Position numbers and translations under genes: made by a program. From Pseudomonas sp. PDM18 (lineage in GTDB: Bacteria; Pseudomonadota; Gammaproteobacteria; Pseudomonadales; Pseudomonadaceae): 64,000 nucleotides of DNA. The stretch spans positions 310,001 through 374,000 of the forward strand of contig NZ_JACVBX010000002.1 in the NCBI RefSeq assembly GCF_014852585.1, in the 5' to 3' direction. Below the pieces are notes generated by a model, which was not told the DNA's origin, did not search any database, and was given only the letters and a program-made list of their open reading frames with translations. Numbering within the stretch: the stretch's first letter is position 1; each line of letters starts with the position of its first letter. Below are positions 53,879-64,000 of this stretch, piece after piece.

Positions 53879-54784
53879 TCAAACCTTCTTGATTGTCCGG
53901 CTGCGTTGCCCATCGATACCCACCGGCACTTCGCCGCTGAGCGTCACGCGGCGCACGATGCGCGGCTGGGTGCCGTAGTCGTCGACGGCGTAGTGCTGGG
54001 TCGCGCGGTTGTCCCAGATGGCCACGTCGCCCGGCTGCCAGCGCCAGCGCACGGTGTTTTCCAGGCGGGTGACGTGGCTCTGCAGCACGGCGAACAGGTG
54101 CGCCGAGTCGTGCTGCGAGAGGCCCTTCAGGCGCTTGACGAAGTGCCCGAGCAGCAGCGTCTTCTCGCCGCTGATGGGATGCACGCGCACTACCGGGTGC
54201 TCGGTCTCGTAGACGGTGGAGGTGAACACCTTGCGGTATTCCTCCAGGCGCGCCGGGTCGACGTTCGGGCGCACGCTGGCATAGTCGTATTCGTTGCTGT
54301 GCACGGCCCAGAGCGAGTCGGCCAGCGCCTTCAGCTCCGGCGTCAGGTCGTCGTAGGCGGTGGCGGTATTGGCCCAGACGGTATCGCCGCCAGACTCCGG
54401 TGCCACCACGTTGCGCAGGATCGACGCCTTGGGATAAGCGTCGACGAAGGTCACGTCGGTGTGCCAGGAGTTGGCGCGGCGGCCCTGGGCGCCGTCCAGC
54501 TCCAGCAGGTAATGGGTGCCTTCCTGTACCGGCACGGTGGGGTGCGCCACCGGCTCGCCGAGCAGCTTGGCGAAGGCTTCCTGGCCCTGGTCGTCGAGCT
54601 GGGTCTGGCCACGGAAGAAGATCACCTTGTGCTGCACCAGCGCAGCCTGGATGGCCTCGATGGTGGCGGCGTCGAGATCGCCGGAAAGCGTGACGCCGCG
54701 AATTTCCGCGCCGATGCGGCCGGCTACCGGGTGGATGTCCAGGTGTACCAGGTCTTGCTGAATGGCTTGTGCTGCAGTGCTCAT
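53879..54784 (-). CDS. atsK: Alkylsulfatase, 2-oxoglutarate-dependent
   Basis: This 301-residue cytoplasmic dioxygenase closely resembles AtsK of P. putida S-313 as I remember it: the same length, [17 protein letters not shown] near the start, [16 protein letters not shown] with the His/Asp iron ligands, [14 protein letters not shown], and [32 protein letters not shown] with the distal His and 2-oxoglutarate-binding Arg. It opens alkyl sulfate esters such as dodecyl or 2-ethylhexyl sulfate to an aldehyde and sulfate, giving the cell sulfur. The ATG at 54784 has GAGG 8 bases upstream. It follows the TonB receptor gene by 57 bases. Confidence 0.92.
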
Positions 54785-54841
54785 CTCATCGTCCTCTTGC
54801 TGTGGCAATAGCGCCGCGCCCGGGAGCGCGGCGGATGGGGA

Positions 54842-57211
54842 TCAGAAGTCGTAACGGACCGACGCGCCCAGAGTCCGCGGCTGCCCCACCGAGGCGGTGT
54901 AGGAGCCGTTGATGCTGGCAAAGGCGGCCAGGTAGTAGTCCTTGTCGAAGGCGTTCTTCAGCCAGACCGAGGCGTCCAGCTGGCCGTCGCCGAGGTCCTT
55001 GCGCAGGCCGACGGAGAAGTTCGCCAGGCCGTAGCCGTCGATCTTCGAGAGGTCGGAGTTGTCCAGCGTGCCCTCGGCCTCGGAGCGGTAGGAGTAGCTG
55101 CCGGTCACGTACGGGCGGATGCCGTCGTCGAGGTTCCAGGCGTATTCGCCATTGAGGTTGGCGATCCATTTCGAGGCGCCGACCACGCGTTGCCCGGTGA
55201 GGTCGCAAGTGGCGGGCGCGCCGGGCTGGGTGGAGATTTCCGCCGGGCACGGGGCGTCCTTGAACGACAGGTAGGTGACATCGTTGTAGGAACCGTTGAA
55301 GTTCAGCGTCAGGCCGCGAATGGGCAGTGCGGTGGCCTCGAATTCCAGGCCGCGCGAACGCACGCTGCCGGCGTTGGAGAGCACCGAGACCAGCTGGGTC
55401 GAACCCGGCGGCTGGTACAGCGTGGTCGCCTGGTAGCCATGGATGCCGGTCCAGAAGAGGTTGGTGTTGAGTTGCAGGCGGTTGTCGAACAGGGTGGTCT
55501 TGATCCCCAGTTCGGCGTCGTTGGCGCGCTCCGGGCCGACCAGCAGGGAGTCGGCGCCGGCTGTTGGCGCACTGGCCACGGCCAGGTTCACGCCCCCGGA
55601 CTTCTCGCCGTGGGACAGCGAGGCATAACCGAGCAGGTCATCGGTGAACTGGTAGCTCAGGCTCAGCAGGGCCGAGGGCGCGAAGCTGTAGAGGCTGAGG
55701 TCGCCCGAGTCGTAGGCGCCCAACTGGTTGCGCCGAACCACTGCGCCGACGCCACTGACCGGCGCACCGCCGATCGGAGCGAAGCGCTCGACCTTGGCGT
55801 CCTTCTCCTCGTAGGTGCCGCGCAGGCCGGCGGTGAAGTCCAGCTTGTCGGTGAGGTGCCAGGTGCCCTGGGCGAACAGCGCAAAGCTGTCGGTCTCGAT
55901 CTTGCCGTTGGCCTTGGAGTAGGTGTTGTTCAGGGCGTTGAGGTTCGCCCCCAGCAGGTACGGGTCGGCCAGCGGGCCGTAGTCGGTGAAGGTCTTGTTG
56001 CCCAGGTTCTGGTTGAAGGCATAGGCGCCCAGCACGTAGTCGAAGAAGCCGCCGGTGGGCGAGGCCAGGCGGATTTCCTGGGAGAACTGGCGGTCGTGGA
56101 CTTCCACGCCGGTGTTGTTGATCGCCGAGACGTTGAGCTGCTCGTCGTTGGCCGGGGTGAAGTGCCAGTAGCGATAGGCGCTGATGGAGGTCAGCTTGTA
56201 GCCGCCGTTGAGGTTCCAGTTGGCCTCCACCGAGCTGCCGCCCTGGTGCACGCTGACGTGCTGGCGGCTGTTGATGTTGACCTTGTGCCGGTCCGGATCG
56301 CGGATCGGCGAAGCGCCTACCGCGGCAGCACGCTGCCAGAAGCGGTCGGCGGCGCCATAGACCACCATGCTGCCGTTGCTCGAATCCTCCTCGTTGTAGT
56401 CGTTGATCCAGCGCAGGTCGAAATCCTCGTTGGGCTTGAACAGCAGTTGCCCGCGGATGCCCTGGCGCTCGCCGCCGTTCAGGTAGTTGTCGTCGTGGAC
56501 GTTCTTGATGTAGCCGTCGTCGCGGGTGCGGTAGGCGGACACGCGCCCGGCCAGGGTGTCGGTCAGCGCGCCGGAGACGGTGCCCTTGCCCTGGAAGTAG
56601 CCGTCCTGGCCACCGGAGACCTCGACGCTGCGCTCGGGGCTGAAGGTCGGTGCGCGGGTGCTGATGTTCAGCACGCCGGCCGTGGTGTTCTTGCCGAACA
56701 GGGTGCCTTGCGGGCCGCGCAGCAGTTCCAGCTGCTCGATGTCCAGCAGGTCGAACACCGCCATGCCTGGGCGGCCCAGGTAGACGTTGTCCAGGTAGAC
56801 CCCCGCGCTGCCTTCCAGGCCGTCGCTGGCCGGGTTGTTGCCGATGCCGCGCACGGCGATGCTCGACTGCCGCGCGTGGATGAAGGCGACGTTCACACTG
56901 GGCAGTATCTGCTGCAGGTCCTGCACCTTGTAGACGCGCTGGGTTTCCAGGGTTTCGCCGCCGACCACGGTGATCGGCGTGGGCACCTTCTGCGAATCCT
57001 CCTCGCGGCGGCGGGCGGTGACTGTCACCTTGCCCAGGGTGGCATCGGCCTTGGCCGGCGCGGCGCTGACGGGCTTGCTGGTTTCGCCGGTGGTGCTGCC
57101 GTCCTCGGCTTCCTCGGCGAATGCCGGTAGCGCGCCGCCCAGGGCCAGCAGGACGATGGCGTAGCGCAGCCGGTGGAGTTTGAAGGGGAAGGGCAAATGT
57201 CTCGAAATCAT
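54842..57211 (-). CDS. TonB-dependent outer-membrane receptor, probably for sulfate esters (SftP-like)
   Basis: This 789-residue receptor has a signal peptide (IVLLALGGALPAFA), then a plug domain with TVTARRREEDSQKVPTPITVVGG and RGIGNNPASDGLEGSAGVYLDNVYLGRPGM (residues 60-180). A 22-strand barrel ends in the outer-membrane signature VRYDF. Position directly upstream of atsK, and opposite a LysR gene, matches sftP of the P. putida S-313 ats locus, thought to bring large alkyl sulfates across the outer membrane with energy from TonB. The assignment to that substrate is inference from context. Confidence 0.86.
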   Translation of the reverse strand: MISRHLPFPFKLHRLRYAIVLLALGGALPAFAEEAEDGSTTGETSKPVSAAPAKADATLGKVTVTARRREEDSQKVPTPITVVGGETLETQRVYKVQDLQQILPSVNVAFIHARQSSIAVRGIGNNPASDGLEGSAGVYLDNVYLGRPGMAVFDLLDIEQLELLRGPQGTLFGKNTTAGVLNISTRAPTFSPERSVEVSGGQDGYFQGKGTVSGALTDTLAGRVSAYRTRDDGYIKNVHDDNYLNGGERQGIRGQLLFKPNEDFDLRWINDYNEEDSSNGSMVVYGAADRFWQRAAAVGASPIRDPDRHKVNINSRQHVSVHQGGSSVEANWNLNGGYKLTSISAYRYWHFTPANDEQLNVSAINNTGVEVHDRQFSQEIRLASPTGGFFDYVLGAYAFNQNLGNKTFTDYGPLADPYLLGANLNALNNTYSKANGKIETDSFALFAQGTWHLTDKLDFTAGLRGTYEEKDAKVERFAPIGGAPVSGVGAVVRRNQLGAYDSGDLSLYSFAPSALLSLSYQFTDDLLGYASLSHGEKSGGVNLAVASAPTAGADSLLVGPERANDAELGIKTTLFDNRLQLNTNLFWTGIHGYQATTLYQPPGSTQLVSVLSNAGSVRSRGLEFEATALPIRGLTLNFNGSYNDVTYLSFKDAPCPAEISTQPGAPATCDLTGQRVVGASKWIANLNGEYAWNLDDGIRPYVTGSYSYRSEAEGTLDNSDLSKIDGYGLANFSVGLRKDLGDGQLDASVWLKNAFDKDYYLAAFASINGSYTASVGQPRTLGASVRYDF

Positions 57212-59186: not shown

Positions 59187-61286
59187 CTAAAACCCACTCT
59201 CCCGCAAAGCCACCGCCAGCAATCGCGTAAACCCTTCGCCCAGCCAGCTGCGCCGGGCGCCTTCGATCTGCAGGTGGCCGCGGGTTTCGTGCAGGCCAGG
59301 TGGTGCGCCGTCGAGTTTCACCAGCACATGGAACAGCGCCGGGTTGGGCACCAGCGCCTCGCCCTGCGGATTGACGTTCAGCGGGCCGCCGTAGCGCGAG
59401 GCGAGCATCGGCTGTTCCAGCTGGCTGATGCGTGTGGTGCCGATCAGCACCACCTGGCCGTCGATGGGGTTCGGCACGCCTTCGGGATAGAAGCGCACCT
59501 GGCCGCCGTCGGTGAGACGCTGCACTTCGTCCTGTTTGACGTAGGCGTCCACCAGCCAGTGCTGCGGGTCCACCAGCACGCCGATGGGTTCGCGGGTGTT
59601 GATCCACTGGCCGGGCTTCCAGTCGGGGTTGACGTCCATCCAGCGCCCGGCGAACGGCGCTTGCAGGTTGAGGCGGGCCATCTCGTTGCGCGCGGCGCGG
59701 GCCTGCTGGTACTCCACGCCCAGGCGCTGGCGGGTAACGGCTTCCTCGGAGAGACCCGAAGGATCGGCCAGCATGCCGGCCAGGCGCCCTTGATAACCAC
59801 GAATGCTGGCCTCGCTGCCGGCCACCTTGGCGGCGATATCGGGCTCTTCCATCACCGCCAGGGTTTCGCCCTTGCTCACCTCGCCGCCGGGGCGCAGGTC
59901 GCGCAGCAGCGCGGGGAAGGGGGCGTAGACGTGCAGTTGCTGCGCCGCGCGGGCCACGCCCATGGCATGTACCTGGGTGCGCCAGGGGATGGCGAGCAGC
60001 AGAACGATGGCGCCGAGCAGCGCGAGAAACACCAGCTTGCGCCGCGGTTTCACTTCCGCGCGGCGCTGCCACCAGACCTTGAGTTCGCGCCACACGGGCT
60101 GAACGATGAACCAGCTGATTTCCACGGCGAACAGGAAGATCCCCAGCAGTTTGAAGAAGAAGTAGTAGACCGCCACGGCGATGCCGAGGAACAGCAGCAG
60201 GCGGTAGACCCAGGTACCGAAGGCGAAGGCCACCAGCGCCCGGCGCTTGCTGGTGGGGAAGTGCTCCGGCCAGGGCTCGTCCAGTCCCAGCAGGTTGCGT
60301 CTTAGCGTGGTGCGTGCGAGGGCGCCGGCGCGTTCATGCAGGTTGGGGAAGTCCAGCAGGTCGGAGAAGATGAAGTAGCCGTCGAAGCGCATGAAGGGGC
60401 TGGCGTTCAGCGCCAGCGACAGCGCCCAGCTGGTGGTCGCCAGGTACAGCAACCCGTTGCGCAAGGGACCGGGATCGGCCAGCGCCCAGCCCAGCGTCGA
60501 CAGCCCGGCCAGGCCCAGCTCGGTGATGATCCCGGCGCTGGCAATCGCCAGGCGCTGGCGGTTGCTGCGCAGCTTCCAGCTCTCGCCGGTATCGGTGTAG
60601 AGCATCGGCCACATCACCACGAAAGCGATGCCCATGTGCGCGACCTTCAAGCCCAGCCGCGTCGCCACCAGTGCGTGGCCCAGCTCGTGCAACGTCTTCG
60701 CCACCACCAGCGCGGCGGCGAAGCTGAGCAGGCCTTCGAAGGAGAAGGACTCCACCACGTCGTGGGTGAAGGTGTCCCACTGGTGCGCCACCAGCACGAT
60801 GCCGGTAAGGCTGAGCAGCAGCACCAGGATGGCCACGTACCGGTTGAACAACCAGTCGAGGCTGCCGGCGATGGCGCGCAGGAAGCGCTGCGGACGCAAC
60901 AGCGGGATGCGGAAGAACAGGTAGTGGTGCAGCCACCAGTTCCAGGTCGTCCACTGTTTGCCTTCGCTGCGCGCGGCCAGGCGCGCCAGGGCTTCGGGGC
61001 CGGGACGCAGCAGCTGGTGGTGTTCGAGGAACTGGCGGAAGCCCAGCACCTGCTCGGCATCGGGCTTGAGCGCGGTCTGCTCGGCGATCTGCTCGCTGAT
61101 CTGCCGGGGCGTCTGCTCCCAGCGCAGCAGACATTCGAACTCCAGCCAGCCGATGCGGTAGAAGCGGTTGAGCACGCTGTCCTGGATCACCCACACCGGC
61201 TCGCCATCCGGGCCGGGCGCGGCTTCGTCCAGGCGCAGATCGTCGCGTAGCGGCGGGGTGGGCAGGTCTTCGGCGGCGATGTCCAT
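59187..61286 (-). CDS. PqqD-like / M50 site-2 protease / HlyD fusion membrane protein
   Basis: The 699-residue protein has three parts. Residues about 28-95 resemble a PqqD-like winged-helix domain (VWVIQDSVLNRFYRIGWLEFECLLRW), the kind that binds peptide leaders. Residues about 150-420 are polytopic, with the zinc site H200-E201-x2-H204 (TLHELGHAL) and N294-ASP-x4-D302-G303 (NASPFMRFDG), a complete M50/site-2 protease active centre. Residues about 435-699 form a HlyD-like adaptor with barrel and hairpin (LHVYAPFPALLRDLRPGGEVSKGETLAVMEEPD). I chose the ATG at 61286; a TTG at 61298 also fits. It is the last gene of the cluster. Function is inferred, not known. Confidence 0.8.
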   Translation of the reverse strand: MDIAAEDLPTPPLRDDLRLDEAAPGPDGEPVWVIQDSVLNRFYRIGWLEFECLLRWEQTPRQISEQIAEQTALKPDAEQVLGFRQFLEHHQLLRPGPEALARLAARSEGKQWTTWNWWLHHYLFFRIPLLRPQRFLRAIAGSLDWLFNRYVAILVLLLSLTGIVLVAHQWDTFTHDVVESFSFEGLLSFAAALVVAKTLHELGHALVATRLGLKVAHMGIAFVVMWPMLYTDTGESWKLRSNRQRLAIASAGIITELGLAGLSTLGWALADPGPLRNGLLYLATTSWALSLALNASPFMRFDGYFIFSDLLDFPNLHERAGALARTTLRRNLLGLDEPWPEHFPTSKRRALVAFAFGTWVYRLLLFLGIAVAVYYFFFKLLGIFLFAVEISWFIVQPVWRELKVWWQRRAEVKPRRKLVFLALLGAIVLLLAIPWRTQVHAMGVARAAQQLHVYAPFPALLRDLRPGGEVSKGETLAVMEEPDIAAKVAGSEASIRGYQGRLAGMLADPSGLSEEAVTRQRLGVEYQQARAARNEMARLNLQAPFAGRWMDVNPDWKPGQWINTREPIGVLVDPQHWLVDAYVKQDEVQRLTDGGQVRFYPEGVPNPIDGQVVLIGTTRISQLEQPMLASRYGGPLNVNPQGEALVPNPALFHVLVKLDGAPPGLHETRGHLQIEGARRSWLGEGFTRLLAVALRESGF

Positions 61287-61291
61287 CGCTA

Positions 61292-62632
61292 CTACCAACC
61301 GGTCCAGGCGCGCAGGGATGCCAGCGGGCGGCGCAGCAGGTAGTAGCCGAGCATCACTCGCTCGCCATACAGCTTGGCCGTGCCGTGCAGGCCGAGGCGG
61401 GCATGGGGCGGGGCGTCCTGCACGCTGGCCAGCAGGCGGTAGGAGGCCACGCCTTCATCGCTGGGCTTGGCCTGGTAGCTGGTGTCGAGGATTTCCCCGT
61501 GCAGCGGGTCGAGCGGGTAGGCGGTGAGGAACAGCGCCACGGGTGCCCCCGGCTCCAGCGCGATGGCATCGGCCACCGGCAGCTGGATGCGCATACCCGG
61601 TGCCTTCGGGTCGGCGATCTGCAGGATGCGCTCGCCCGTCACCACCGGCTTGCCCAGCCAGTCGTTGGGGTCGCTGTACACGGCCACGCCGGTGCGCGGC
61701 GCGAGTACGCGGGTGCGCGCCAGTTGCGCCTGCACGGCGGCCAGTTCGGCGCGGCGCTGTCGCGAGCGGCCGTCGAGCACCGACAGTTCGCTCTTGCTCT
61801 GCGGGTTGTCGAAGGCGCGCTGGCTGGCGGCCATGAGTTCGGCGTCGGCCACGGCAACTTCCTTGGCCAGCACGTCGGCGCGACTGCGCAGGGTGGTTTC
61901 GTCCAGCTCGAAAAGAGGCGTGCCGACCTCGACGCTCTGGTTCGGGCGCACCAGCATCTTGACGATCACGCCGTCGATGGGCGAGCTGATCACCTGAGCG
62001 TTGCGTGAGACTATTTCCGCCGGCGCCAGGGCGGTCTGTCGCACCGGAATCAGCAGCAGCGCGGCCAATGCAATGACGCCGACCATTACCTGGCGCGTGC
62101 TCGGTCGCCAGTAGCGCAGGCGGGTGCGGGGCCCGAACGACGCCCAGGCGTGCGCCCAGGTCTGCCAGATGCCCTGCAGAAGCGGTTGCAGGTTGCGCGC
62201 CGGCGGCTCGTCGAGCAGGAACAGCACCAGCCCCAGGCGCTTGCCGGCGCGGTCGTGCAGCGGCACGCACCAGAGTCCGGCTGGCCACCATTCGCTCCAG
62301 CCCTCGGCGATGTCGGCGGGCGGCTCGATGGCGTCGCGGGCCAGCCAGGTGGGTGTGGCGTCGGGTAGTTGTCCGGCGACCCAGCGGCTGGCGCGTTCCA
62401 GCCAGACCAGATAGGGCGAGTCTTCCGTGGGCTTGGCCAGGCCGGACACCGCCAGCAGCTCGTTGCGCGATTCATGGCAGGCGAACACCAGCGCCTGGTG
62501 GAAACGCAGCAGCGGGAACAGGTCATTGGCGATGCTGAAAGCGAGGCCTCCGAGGGAGTCGGCCGTCAGCGCCTTGTCCCGCACATTGGCCAGGCTCAGC
62601 AGCAGCTGGGGTGGCGGCAGCAGCTCACTCAT
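61292..62632 (-). CDS. GAF-like / HlyD membrane adaptor
   Basis: This 446-residue protein has a cytoplasmic N-terminal half (residues 20-170) that reads like a GAF sensory domain: DLFPLLRFHQALVFACHESRNELLAVSGLA, then WWPAGLWCVPLHDRAGKRLGLVLFLLDE. One membrane helix (residues 181-197, VMVGVIALAALLLIPV) and a periplasmic HlyD part follow (AQVISSPIDGVIVKMLVRPNQSVEVGTPLFELDE). It overlaps the upstream adaptor gene by 8 bases and ends 5 bases before the M50 fusion start. It may couple a cytoplasmic signal to transport; that is inference. Confidence 0.8.
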   Translation of the reverse strand: MSELLPPPQLLLSLANVRDKALTADSLGGLAFSIANDLFPLLRFHQALVFACHESRNELLAVSGLAKPTEDSPYLVWLERASRWVAGQLPDATPTWLARDAIEPPADIAEGWSEWWPAGLWCVPLHDRAGKRLGLVLFLLDEPPARNLQPLLQGIWQTWAHAWASFGPRTRLRYWRPSTRQVMVGVIALAALLLIPVRQTALAPAEIVSRNAQVISSPIDGVIVKMLVRPNQSVEVGTPLFELDETTLRSRADVLAKEVAVADAELMAASQRAFDNPQSKSELSVLDGRSRQRRAELAAVQAQLARTRVLAPRTGVAVYSDPNDWLGKPVVTGERILQIADPKAPGMRIQLPVADAIALEPGAPVALFLTAYPLDPLHGEILDTSYQAKPSDEGVASYRLLASVQDAPPHARLGLHGTAKLYGERVMLGYYLLRRPLASLRAWTGW

Positions 62633-63401
62633 GGCTTTCGGGGAAGCGCGCGACCCCGCTCATGCCGGCGATCAGTTCGGGGTAGCTGGCGTCCAGCTTC
62701 GCTTCCAGCTCGACGGTTTGCGCCACGGCGTCGACCCGCGCGTTGATCACGCTGACCTTGGCCGGGTAGTGCTTGCCGGTTTCGTGGATGTCCACTTCCA
62801 GCGGCATGTCCGGGCGCAGGCTGGGCAGCATGGACGAGGGCACGTTGAGGCGGACCTTCAGCGCGCCGTCGCTGACCAGGTCGAACAGCGGCGTGCCGGC
62901 GGTCACCGTCTGGTACGGCTTGACGTAGACCTTGGCGATACGCCCGGAGAAGGGCGCATCGACCAGGCAGTAGCCGGCCTGGGCGCGGGCCAGGGTGAGG
63001 GCGCCGTCGGCCTTCTGCACTTCAGTGTTGGCCATGGCGACTTCGAGGTCGCCCACGGCATCGAGCTTGCGCAGGTTCTGCTTGGCGGCGAGGTTGGAGC
63101 GGGCCATGGTCAGTTCGGCGGCGGCGACCTTGGCGCGGGCGTTGACCTCCACGCAGTTGAGCTGGGCCAGCTCGGCGTCCTTGGCGACCTTGTCGCCCAG
63201 GCTCGCCTTGAGCGCGCCGAGGGTGCCGTTCATTTGCGCGGAAAGGGTGGTTTCCAGGTTGGACACCAGCAGCACGCGGATGGCGCCGGGGTCCTGGTTG
63301 TCCGGCAGCGGCGGCAGGCCGTCGGGGGCGTCATCGGCCAGCGCCGGCTGGAGCAACATCAGGCAGAGCGGGAGGAGCAGGTACGGCTTACTGCGCGGCA
63401 T
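62625..63401 (-). CDS. Periplasmic adaptor (HlyD/RND-type)
   Basis: This 258-residue protein has a signal peptide (YLLLPLCLMLLQPALA) and the adaptor pattern: an N-terminal half-barrel around IRVLLVSNLETTLSAQMNGTLGAL, an alpha-hairpin of about 60 residues, and a C-terminal barrel (APFSGRIAKVYVKPYQTVTAGTPLFDLVSDG). The sheet is shorter than in typical RND adaptors. AAGGA lies about 7 bases before the ATG at 63401. It overlaps the TolC-like gene by 14 bases. Confidence 0.82.
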   Translation of the reverse strand: MPRSKPYLLLPLCLMLLQPALADDAPDGLPPLPDNQDPGAIRVLLVSNLETTLSAQMNGTLGALKASLGDKVAKDAELAQLNCVEVNARAKVAAAELTMARSNLAAKQNLRKLDAVGDLEVAMANTEVQKADGALTLARAQAGYCLVDAPFSGRIAKVYVKPYQTVTAGTPLFDLVSDGALKVRLNVPSSMLPSLRPDMPLEVDIHETGKHYPAKVSVINARVDAVAQTVELEAKLDASYPELIAGMSGVARFPESHE

Positions 63402-64000
63402 TGGCGGTTCCTTCTGTGCCACTGGAGGTGCTGCTGGCGAGCAGGTTGGTACTGGTCTGTTGTTCCAGCGTGCGCTGGATTTCCCGCGCCAGGGTCTTCA
63501 CGTCGTGGTTCTCGATTTCCTTGGGCATCACCTCGAAGCCCACCGAGTTGTATAGCCGGCCCCATGCGGCCTGGGCGTCGGAGTAGGCGGCTTCGCGCTG
63601 GTAGCGCGAGAGCAGGAAGCGGCCTTCGGCGCGGATCAGCTCCAACTCGCTGCCCAGGGCGGCGCCACGGGCGGACTGGGCATAGCTGAGCAGGCTCTGG
63701 TCGACGCGCAGGCTCTCGTCGGCGAACTCCACTTCCTGCCTGGCCAGCTGATAGCGCAGCAGGCCGACGCGAACCTGGGTGAGGATGGCCATGGACAGCG
63801 CGGTGCGGCGCATGTCGTCGGTCTTTTCCTGGCTGGCCTCGGCGGCCTTGATGTCCGGGTACTGCGCCAGGCGCAGCAGGTTCATCGAGACGTTGATGCC
63901 GGTCTGGTTCCAGTCGTTGTTGTACAGGTACTTGTTGGAGTCGTACTCGTAGCCGTAGTTGAAGCTCACGTTGGGCCACAGCTGGGCCTTGGCGATCTTC
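63388..64000 (-). CDS. TolC-family outer-membrane channel (partial, runs off the right edge)
   Basis: At least 203 C-terminal residues are visible. They contain a beta-strand region (NVSFNYGYEYDSNKYLY), long Ala/Arg/Glu-rich helices of the periplasmic tunnel, and a low-complexity tail (STSSGTEGTANAAQ). The reading frame continues past 64000 upstream of an apparent internal start, so the N-terminus is cut by the window. It is the first gene seen of the export cluster. Confidence 0.8.
   Translation of the reverse strand, partial: KIAKAQLWPNVSFNYGYEYDSNKYLYNNDWNQTGINVSMNLLRLAQYPDIKAAEASQEKTDDMRRTALSMAILTQVRVGLLRYQLARQEVEFADESLRVDQSLLSYAQSARGAALGSELELIRAEGRFLLSRYQREAAYSDAQAAWGRLYNSVGFEVMPKEIENHDVKTLAREIQRTLEQQTSTNLLASSTSSGTEGTANAAQ

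Follow-up and report, generated by a model that had tools for sequence, protein, structure and literature searches.

Four export genes at the end of a 64,000-nucleotide stretch of Pseudomonas sp. PDM18 DNA (contig NZ_JACVBX010000002.1, positions 310,001 to 374,000; hereafter the window) belong to a five-gene operon. We think it somewhat probable that these five genes serve to export a single giant surface protein, which would follow an N-terminal leader pathway. The central component is a membrane protein, here called M50F, in which a RiPP (ribosomally synthesized and post-translationally modified peptide) recognition element (RRE, PqqD-type) is fused to an M50 protease core and an HlyD-type adaptor. 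Contigs (C), loci (L) and genomes (G) carry our own numbers where they have to be told apart.

Gene order and domain content of the operon

In our numbering the window lies on contig C22; the genome measures 6.4 Mb. The initial annotation, made from sequence alone, had described four overlapping minus-strand export genes at 59187–64000, and we confirmed this observation: the open reading frames (ORFs) are real, their frames overlap, and the domain families and intact M50 motifs were found. Past the window edge, the TolC-type gene is completed (528 residues; end at position 64974 in the window frame). Upstream of it, with an overlap of 4 bases, lies an ORF of 3515 residues, the first gene of the operon. 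The resulting order is giant gene, TolC-type channel, short HlyD, GAF-HlyD and M50F. A short-chain dehydrogenase/reductase gene is divergent upstream of the giant gene and a LysR gene is convergent downstream of M50F; the operon therefore consists of five genes and contains no pump.

The features are as follows (window coordinates, all on the minus strand).

59187–61298: M50F, RRE(PqqD)-M50-HlyD fusion, 703 residues, ending in RESGF
61002–61262: N-terminal RRE/PqqD-fold domain of M50F, residues 13–99
60156–60746: M50 (site-2 protease, S2P) core of M50F, residues 185–381
60675–60689: HELGH zinc motif of M50F, residues 204–208; H204, E205 and H208 invariant in 105 sequences
60378–60407: NASPFMRFDG, second M50 motif of M50F, residues 298–307; N298 and D306 invariant in 105 sequences
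59190–60047: adaptor (HlyD/MacA-like) part of M50F, residues 418–703
61292–62632: GAF-HlyD, composed of a GAF domain at the N-terminus, a single membrane segment (judged by eye) and an HlyD part
62625–63422: short HlyD-type adaptor, probably starting at the ATG at 63401, whose N-terminus looks by eye like a Sec signal peptide; RND_mfp 107.5 bits, cut-off 94.9
63388–64000: TolC-type outer-membrane channel (OEP), running past the window to 64974 in the window frame
64971–75518 in the window frame (6972–17519 of L004): proposed substrate, a DUF4347/VCBS/cadherin protein of 3515 residues, wholly outside the window

The structure of M50F, whose prediction the initial annotation had proposed, was modelled with confidence (pLDDT 94.6). 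Three parts are recognised in the model: an RRE like that of lasso-peptide B1 proteins, of which leader-bound structures exist, an M50 core similar to RseP and an adaptor similar to MacA. The N-domain consists of three strands and three helices in the winged-helix RRE fold, which bears out the PqqD-like fold previously suggested for residues 28–95. At the sequence level, the similarity is weaker. When the N-domain was aligned by hhalign to a set of ten PqqD-type sequences, the probability was 57 (E 1.1e-4), and in a PDB profile search PqqD (3g2b) alone passed 0.001, with a MarR-type regulator ranked between the RREs. PF05402 matched 25 of 111 M50F family members at E ≤0.1, and at this limit gave no match in the window's own M50F. 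When the whole M50F model was submitted to Foldseek, the best 50 matches listed were adaptors only.

The membrane core of M50F carries both HExxH and the second N...P....DG motif; their invariance was counted in alignment A2, which took 105 of 120 M50F sequences (A3 took 111 of 112 rows and A5 took 70 of 109). The best named relative is the daptide protease family NF041824 (162.2 bits over residues 35–396, cut-off 300), and NF058609 (YydH/LiaK) reached 29.5 bits with a cut-off of 225. Since both scores lie under their cut-offs, M50F is, as judged by sequence, outside the named protease families. It has the M50 core in common with them, to which it adds the HlyD part and its position in an export operon. 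Family scans of M50F matched no ABC (ATP-binding cassette) or C39 part. M50F has about seven membrane helices, from which the RRE should face the cytoplasm.

Of the components expected in a type I secretion system, HlyD-type adaptors and a TolC-type channel are present at the locus, the latter with 130.8 bits for OEP and 50.6 bits for TIGR01844, under the cut-off of 225 for that family. A GAF fold was recognised in the structure model of the GAF-HlyD N-terminus; a GAF profile run against the PDB by sequence found no GAF.

The giant protein and its N-terminal leader

The giant protein contains DUF4347, isopeptide-type, VCBS and cadherin repeat domains. It stands where an ABC or RND (resistance–nodulation–division) pump gene next to the TolC gene would have completed an ordinary exporter. 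The pump-less cluster, the RRE fold and a substrate encoded outside the window, all part of the initial interpretation, thus withstood analysis. That interpretation had also assumed a peptide substrate; the likely substrate is instead this 3515-residue protein with an N-terminal leader.

Its N-terminus reads MQAKYRSKLFQPVAHALALEQRILFDGAAAAAV and is without a Sec-like signal. The leader is LEQRILFDGA at residues 19–28 (consensus LEPRxxFDGA). Leaders fell into two types, an FD-type with the core (A)LE[PQ]R[IMF][LM]FD[GA]A (38 rows) and an S-type with the core ExLEPR[IL]L[LFY]SAD (17 rows). The search pattern permitted only E/N, R/K and D/S at three positions, so that the invariance of these positions is partly built in; the leader LEPRILLAAD of L145 escaped the pattern and was added by eye. 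The S-type leader is the NCBIfam LEPR-XLL domain NF012209, of which the window's leader is a variant with 16.2 bits, below the cut-off of 17; other leaders scored up to 41.6 bits. Some open frames of LEPR-type leader proteins exceed 10,000 residues.

At the C-terminus, a hydrophobicity cut for membrane anchors was passed by only 4 of the 67 ORFs examined (L090, L107, L173 and a short ORF in L101). At the end of the giants of L090, L107, L173 and L216 a hydrophobic stretch precedes PAWRxIDPLPxL, and this region may act as a stop or an anchor. Many first-clade giants (L037–L116) end in an FS[AE]QL motif, like ARGFSAQLRxAAQR or SFSEQLR.

Co-occurrence of M50F, DUF4347 proteins and leaders

The initial annotation had suggested searching other genomes for the cluster and for very large neighbours. 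We examined the best 80 of 430 confirmed M50F loci, which came from beta-, gamma- and alphaproteobacteria, Desulfobacterota-type and Nitrospira records. At 72 of the 80 loci GAF-HlyD lay no more than 10 kb from M50F; TolC did so at 62, short HlyD at 60 and a large repeat or DUF4347 ORF at 56. Gene maps of these loci show the same gene set, sometimes in changed order, and leader giants adjoin M50F in proteobacteria as well as in Nitrospira. In the genome of the window itself, a second copy of short HlyD, GAF-HlyD and M50F lies at the edge of contig C8 (L005, 260–4451). Two similar DUF4347 giants run off the small contigs C23 and C24 (L171, L172), one of them beside a TolC end; perhaps they are the missing part of the C8 cluster.

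M50F and DUF4347 were searched in the same draw of 369 class genomes. M50F was detected in 57 (some counted from fragments, e.g. G185 and G153), DUF4347 in 46 and both in 35 (odds ratio 43.5, p 1.7e-24). The DUF4347 proteins carried a leader in all 25 genomes examined that had M50F and in two of ten without it (p 1.9e-6), and five of the remaining eight M50F-free genomes have a Sec-like N-terminus on this protein. The leader table covers 35 of the 46 DUF4347 genomes (30 by loci, five separately) and counts G123 as M50F-positive because of a fragment at a contig edge; the two-by-two table counts it as negative. This comparison, in which the protein domain is held fixed, carries the most weight.

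Among 38 M50F genomes, DUF4347 was found in 37, a biased rate given that we picked these genomes from the 80 loci, mostly for a repeat ORF running off the left edge; 29 of 30 N-termini fetched had the leader. NF012209 occurred at E ≤2.5e-4, a limit chosen after the list was seen, in 27 of the 369 genomes, 25 of which have M50F.

Two M50F clades and a SecA-like ATPase

A FastTree tree of 120 M50F sequences (four of less than 600 residues were left out) has clades of 92 and 28 members and some long branches. Leader type matched M50F clade in all 27 tree rows that have a leader within 6 kb: FD-type (FD[GA]) in 20 of 20 in the first clade, which is that of the window, and S-type in 7 of 7 in the second, i.e. 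one change on the tree.

In 18 of the 28 second-clade members, a gene for about 660 residues with SecA motifs lies directly beside M50F, with touching or overlapping frames (e.g. at L215, L175, L189, L192 and L195). One of these ATPases was scanned; it matched SecA models under every cut-off, including all of those for SecA2. Among the best-scoring rows listed for the 369 genomes, short SecA-like ORFs (open frames of 647–837 residues) occurred in at least 21 genomes, all with M50F (p 2.4e-19). Two or more SecA matches at 1e-100 were present in 22 genomes, one of which (G113) is without M50F; weaker second SecA matches were seen in G053, G060 and G366, all with M50F. In G081 and G310 the SecA-like gene lies away from M50F. 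Given this ATPase beside M50F in the sister clade, a motor besides M50F is probably needed; the initial interpretation, with the M50 fusion in place of the pump, is partly supported.

Proposed export route

In our best reading, the leader is a tag that M50F reads; the adaptors and TolC provide the conduit, and SecA is the motor in at least one clade. Reading of the leader (LEPRxxFDGA) would fall to the RRE domain of M50F, on the cytoplasmic side, a binding step suggested by the co-variation of leader type and clade, and the M50 core would cut the leader at the membrane. The chain would then pass, N-terminus first, through a periplasmic conduit made up of the TolC channel and the adaptor parts of M50F, GAF-HlyD and short HlyD. 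Passage across the inner membrane may be powered by a SecA-type motor, via SecYEG or M50F itself. In the sister clade this motor would be the dedicated short SecA; in the window's clade it may be the housekeeping SecA, or co-translational pushing may take its place.

More tentatively, we suggest that this is a separate Gram-negative secretion pathway, in which an LEPR leader is caught by an RRE, an S2P-adaptor fusion cuts and hands over the protein, and the force that drives it, N-terminus first, through a TolC conduit comes from a SecA-type motor instead of an ABC pump; we hold this broader claim with some doubt.

Observations against this route and alternative explanations

Several observations weigh against an M50F-dependent leader pathway. 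No dedicated motor was seen in the window's clade, and the window's genome has one SecA_DEAD match only, which gives no indication of SecA2. A TolC model seeded from the first clade gave no match within 10 kb of M50F at any of the 28 second-clade loci; among 42 further loci, nine have a TolC gene near M50F, all of the first clade. One of the 30 fetched DUF4347 proteins, that of L304, is without an in-frame leader. At the family's own cut-off, 35 of 48 genomes with NF012209 have M50F, and 11 of the 13 exceptions are weak (E 0.003 to 0.05). A leader without detected M50F occurs in G213 (100% complete), G245, G286 and G076; in the last three the leader gene runs off its contig. Furthermore, DUF4347 went unmatched in 22 of the 57 M50F genomes; in four of these 22, other leader proteins adjoin M50F (L187, L190, L196 and L216). 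On contig C57 of G213 (L257, L258), RND-type (by eye) and HlyD-type genes lie near an LEPR-leader protein with an open frame of 7373 residues.

Other contrary points concern type I export. A conventional type I ABC exporter, with its gene at another site in the genome, might export the giant; the cluster would then lend only adaptors and channel, and M50F would trim or retain the N-terminus, much as LapG acts on LapA. Three LssB-type ABC exporters over cut-off are encoded elsewhere in this genome (on C4, C11 and C33) and could help in trans. The repeats of the giant resemble BapA/LapF-type adhesins (NF045619, 337 bits), and T1SS-143 repeats reach 57.5 bits, under the cut-off of 66.05. Like type I substrates, an LEPR-XLL giant of Vibrio carries RTX and serralysin domains at its C-terminus (PMC10868602), a warning that some LEPR-XLL proteins may use type I export.

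However, no ABC exporter is encoded at the window's own locus. In a motif search (not a family search), an ORF with ABC-ATPase motifs was found within 10 kb at six of the 80 loci; four of these ORFs have no hydrophobic window, and the other two encode 242 and 255 residues on the other strand. One fused ABC exporter turned up among the 42 further loci, at a distance of 4.9 kb (L216). We rejected the idea that the cluster itself includes an ABC exporter; the hits at L186, L190 and L196 are of ABC-F type, with two nucleotide-binding halves by eye. At 1e-100, 31 of the 57 M50F genomes, including the single-contig genomes G053 and G106, gave no LssB-type (TIGR03375) or PrtD-type (TIGR01842) match, in a scan that scored up to 16 and 20 candidates per genome, contained some incomplete genomes and did not cover HlyB-type TIGR01846. 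No RTX family was found in the window's giant at E ≤1. Moreover, trimming alone leaves the pairing of leader and M50F, the Sec-like starts in genomes without M50F and the linked SecA-like ATPase unexplained. We regard export by a type I system encoded elsewhere as unlikely.

Alternatively, the leader could be an unusual Sec/SRP (signal recognition particle) targeting sequence; SecYEG would deliver the protein to the periplasm first, and M50F and the adaptors would act only from the periplasm to the channel. The link between M50F and a SecA-like ATPase in the sister clade, the basic stretch that precedes many leaders and the Sec-like starts of the DUF4347 proteins in five M50F-free genomes fit this proposal. 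Yet on a simple hydrophobic index the 57 leader regions had a median of 1.4 (five above 2.0), compared with 1.9 to 2.8 for the five Sec-like starts (two under 2.0), which weakens the leader as a plain Sec signal. An RRE facing the cytoplasm, as the membrane helices suggest, would also imply recognition before crossing. This explanation, too, seems rather improbable to us. That M50F is a regulatory site-2 protease, or acts on a small RiPP-like peptide with the giant merely as a neighbour, is very improbable: its best named relative is indeed a daptide precursor protease family, but the score is far under the family cut-off, M50F clade tracks leader type, and leader giants stand beside M50F in proteobacteria and Nitrospira alike.

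Elsewhere in the window, a TonB-dependent receptor and a TauD-type dioxygenase gene (53879–57211) adjoin a LysR gene and look like an ordinary cluster for uptake and utilisation.

Relation to known systems and significance

The M50F system is best read as type I-like in its conduit and RiPP-like in its leader reading, and it lacks the ABC exporter that defines type I. Giant adhesins of the LapA/BapA class leave the cell through type I secretion systems. With such systems (also that of ArtA, PMC9430717) the M50F cluster has in common an HlyD adaptor, a TolC channel and a giant VCBS/cadherin-type substrate in the same operon. It differs in having no ABC exporter, in its proposed N-terminal leader instead of a C-terminal signal and in the fusion of the adaptor to RRE and M50. 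If our reading is right, M50F shares with PCAT/C39 ABC transporters (PMC8277102) the combination of leader recognition, cleavage and transport in one membrane protein; unlike them, it uses an M50 protease and no matched ABC/C39 part, and its substrate is thousands of residues long. Residues 13–99 have the same fold as the RREs of RiPP pathways (PqqD 3g2b, TbiB1 5v1u, TfuB1 6jx3), whereas in M50F the RRE is fused to a membrane protease-adaptor and would act on the leader of a giant protein. The second clade resembles accessory SecA2 systems in its extra short SecA-like ATPase; there, however, the ATPase is linked to M50F, HlyD and giants, and the one tested falls under the SecA2 cut-offs. NF012209 (LEPR-XLL) is matched by second-clade leaders, and the family name gives no function. 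In the open-licence literature, judged by titles and the beginnings of abstracts, we found no description of this system or of an export route for LEPR-leader proteins.

Proteins with LEPR-type leaders are among the largest of bacteria, and through the link to M50F candidates emerge for the reader and the protease of their leader, for their conduit and, in one clade, for a motor. If this is true, leader recognition of the RiPP type would extend to giant proteins, and a TolC conduit would, against the rule, work without any ABC, RND or MFS (major facilitator superfamily) pump.

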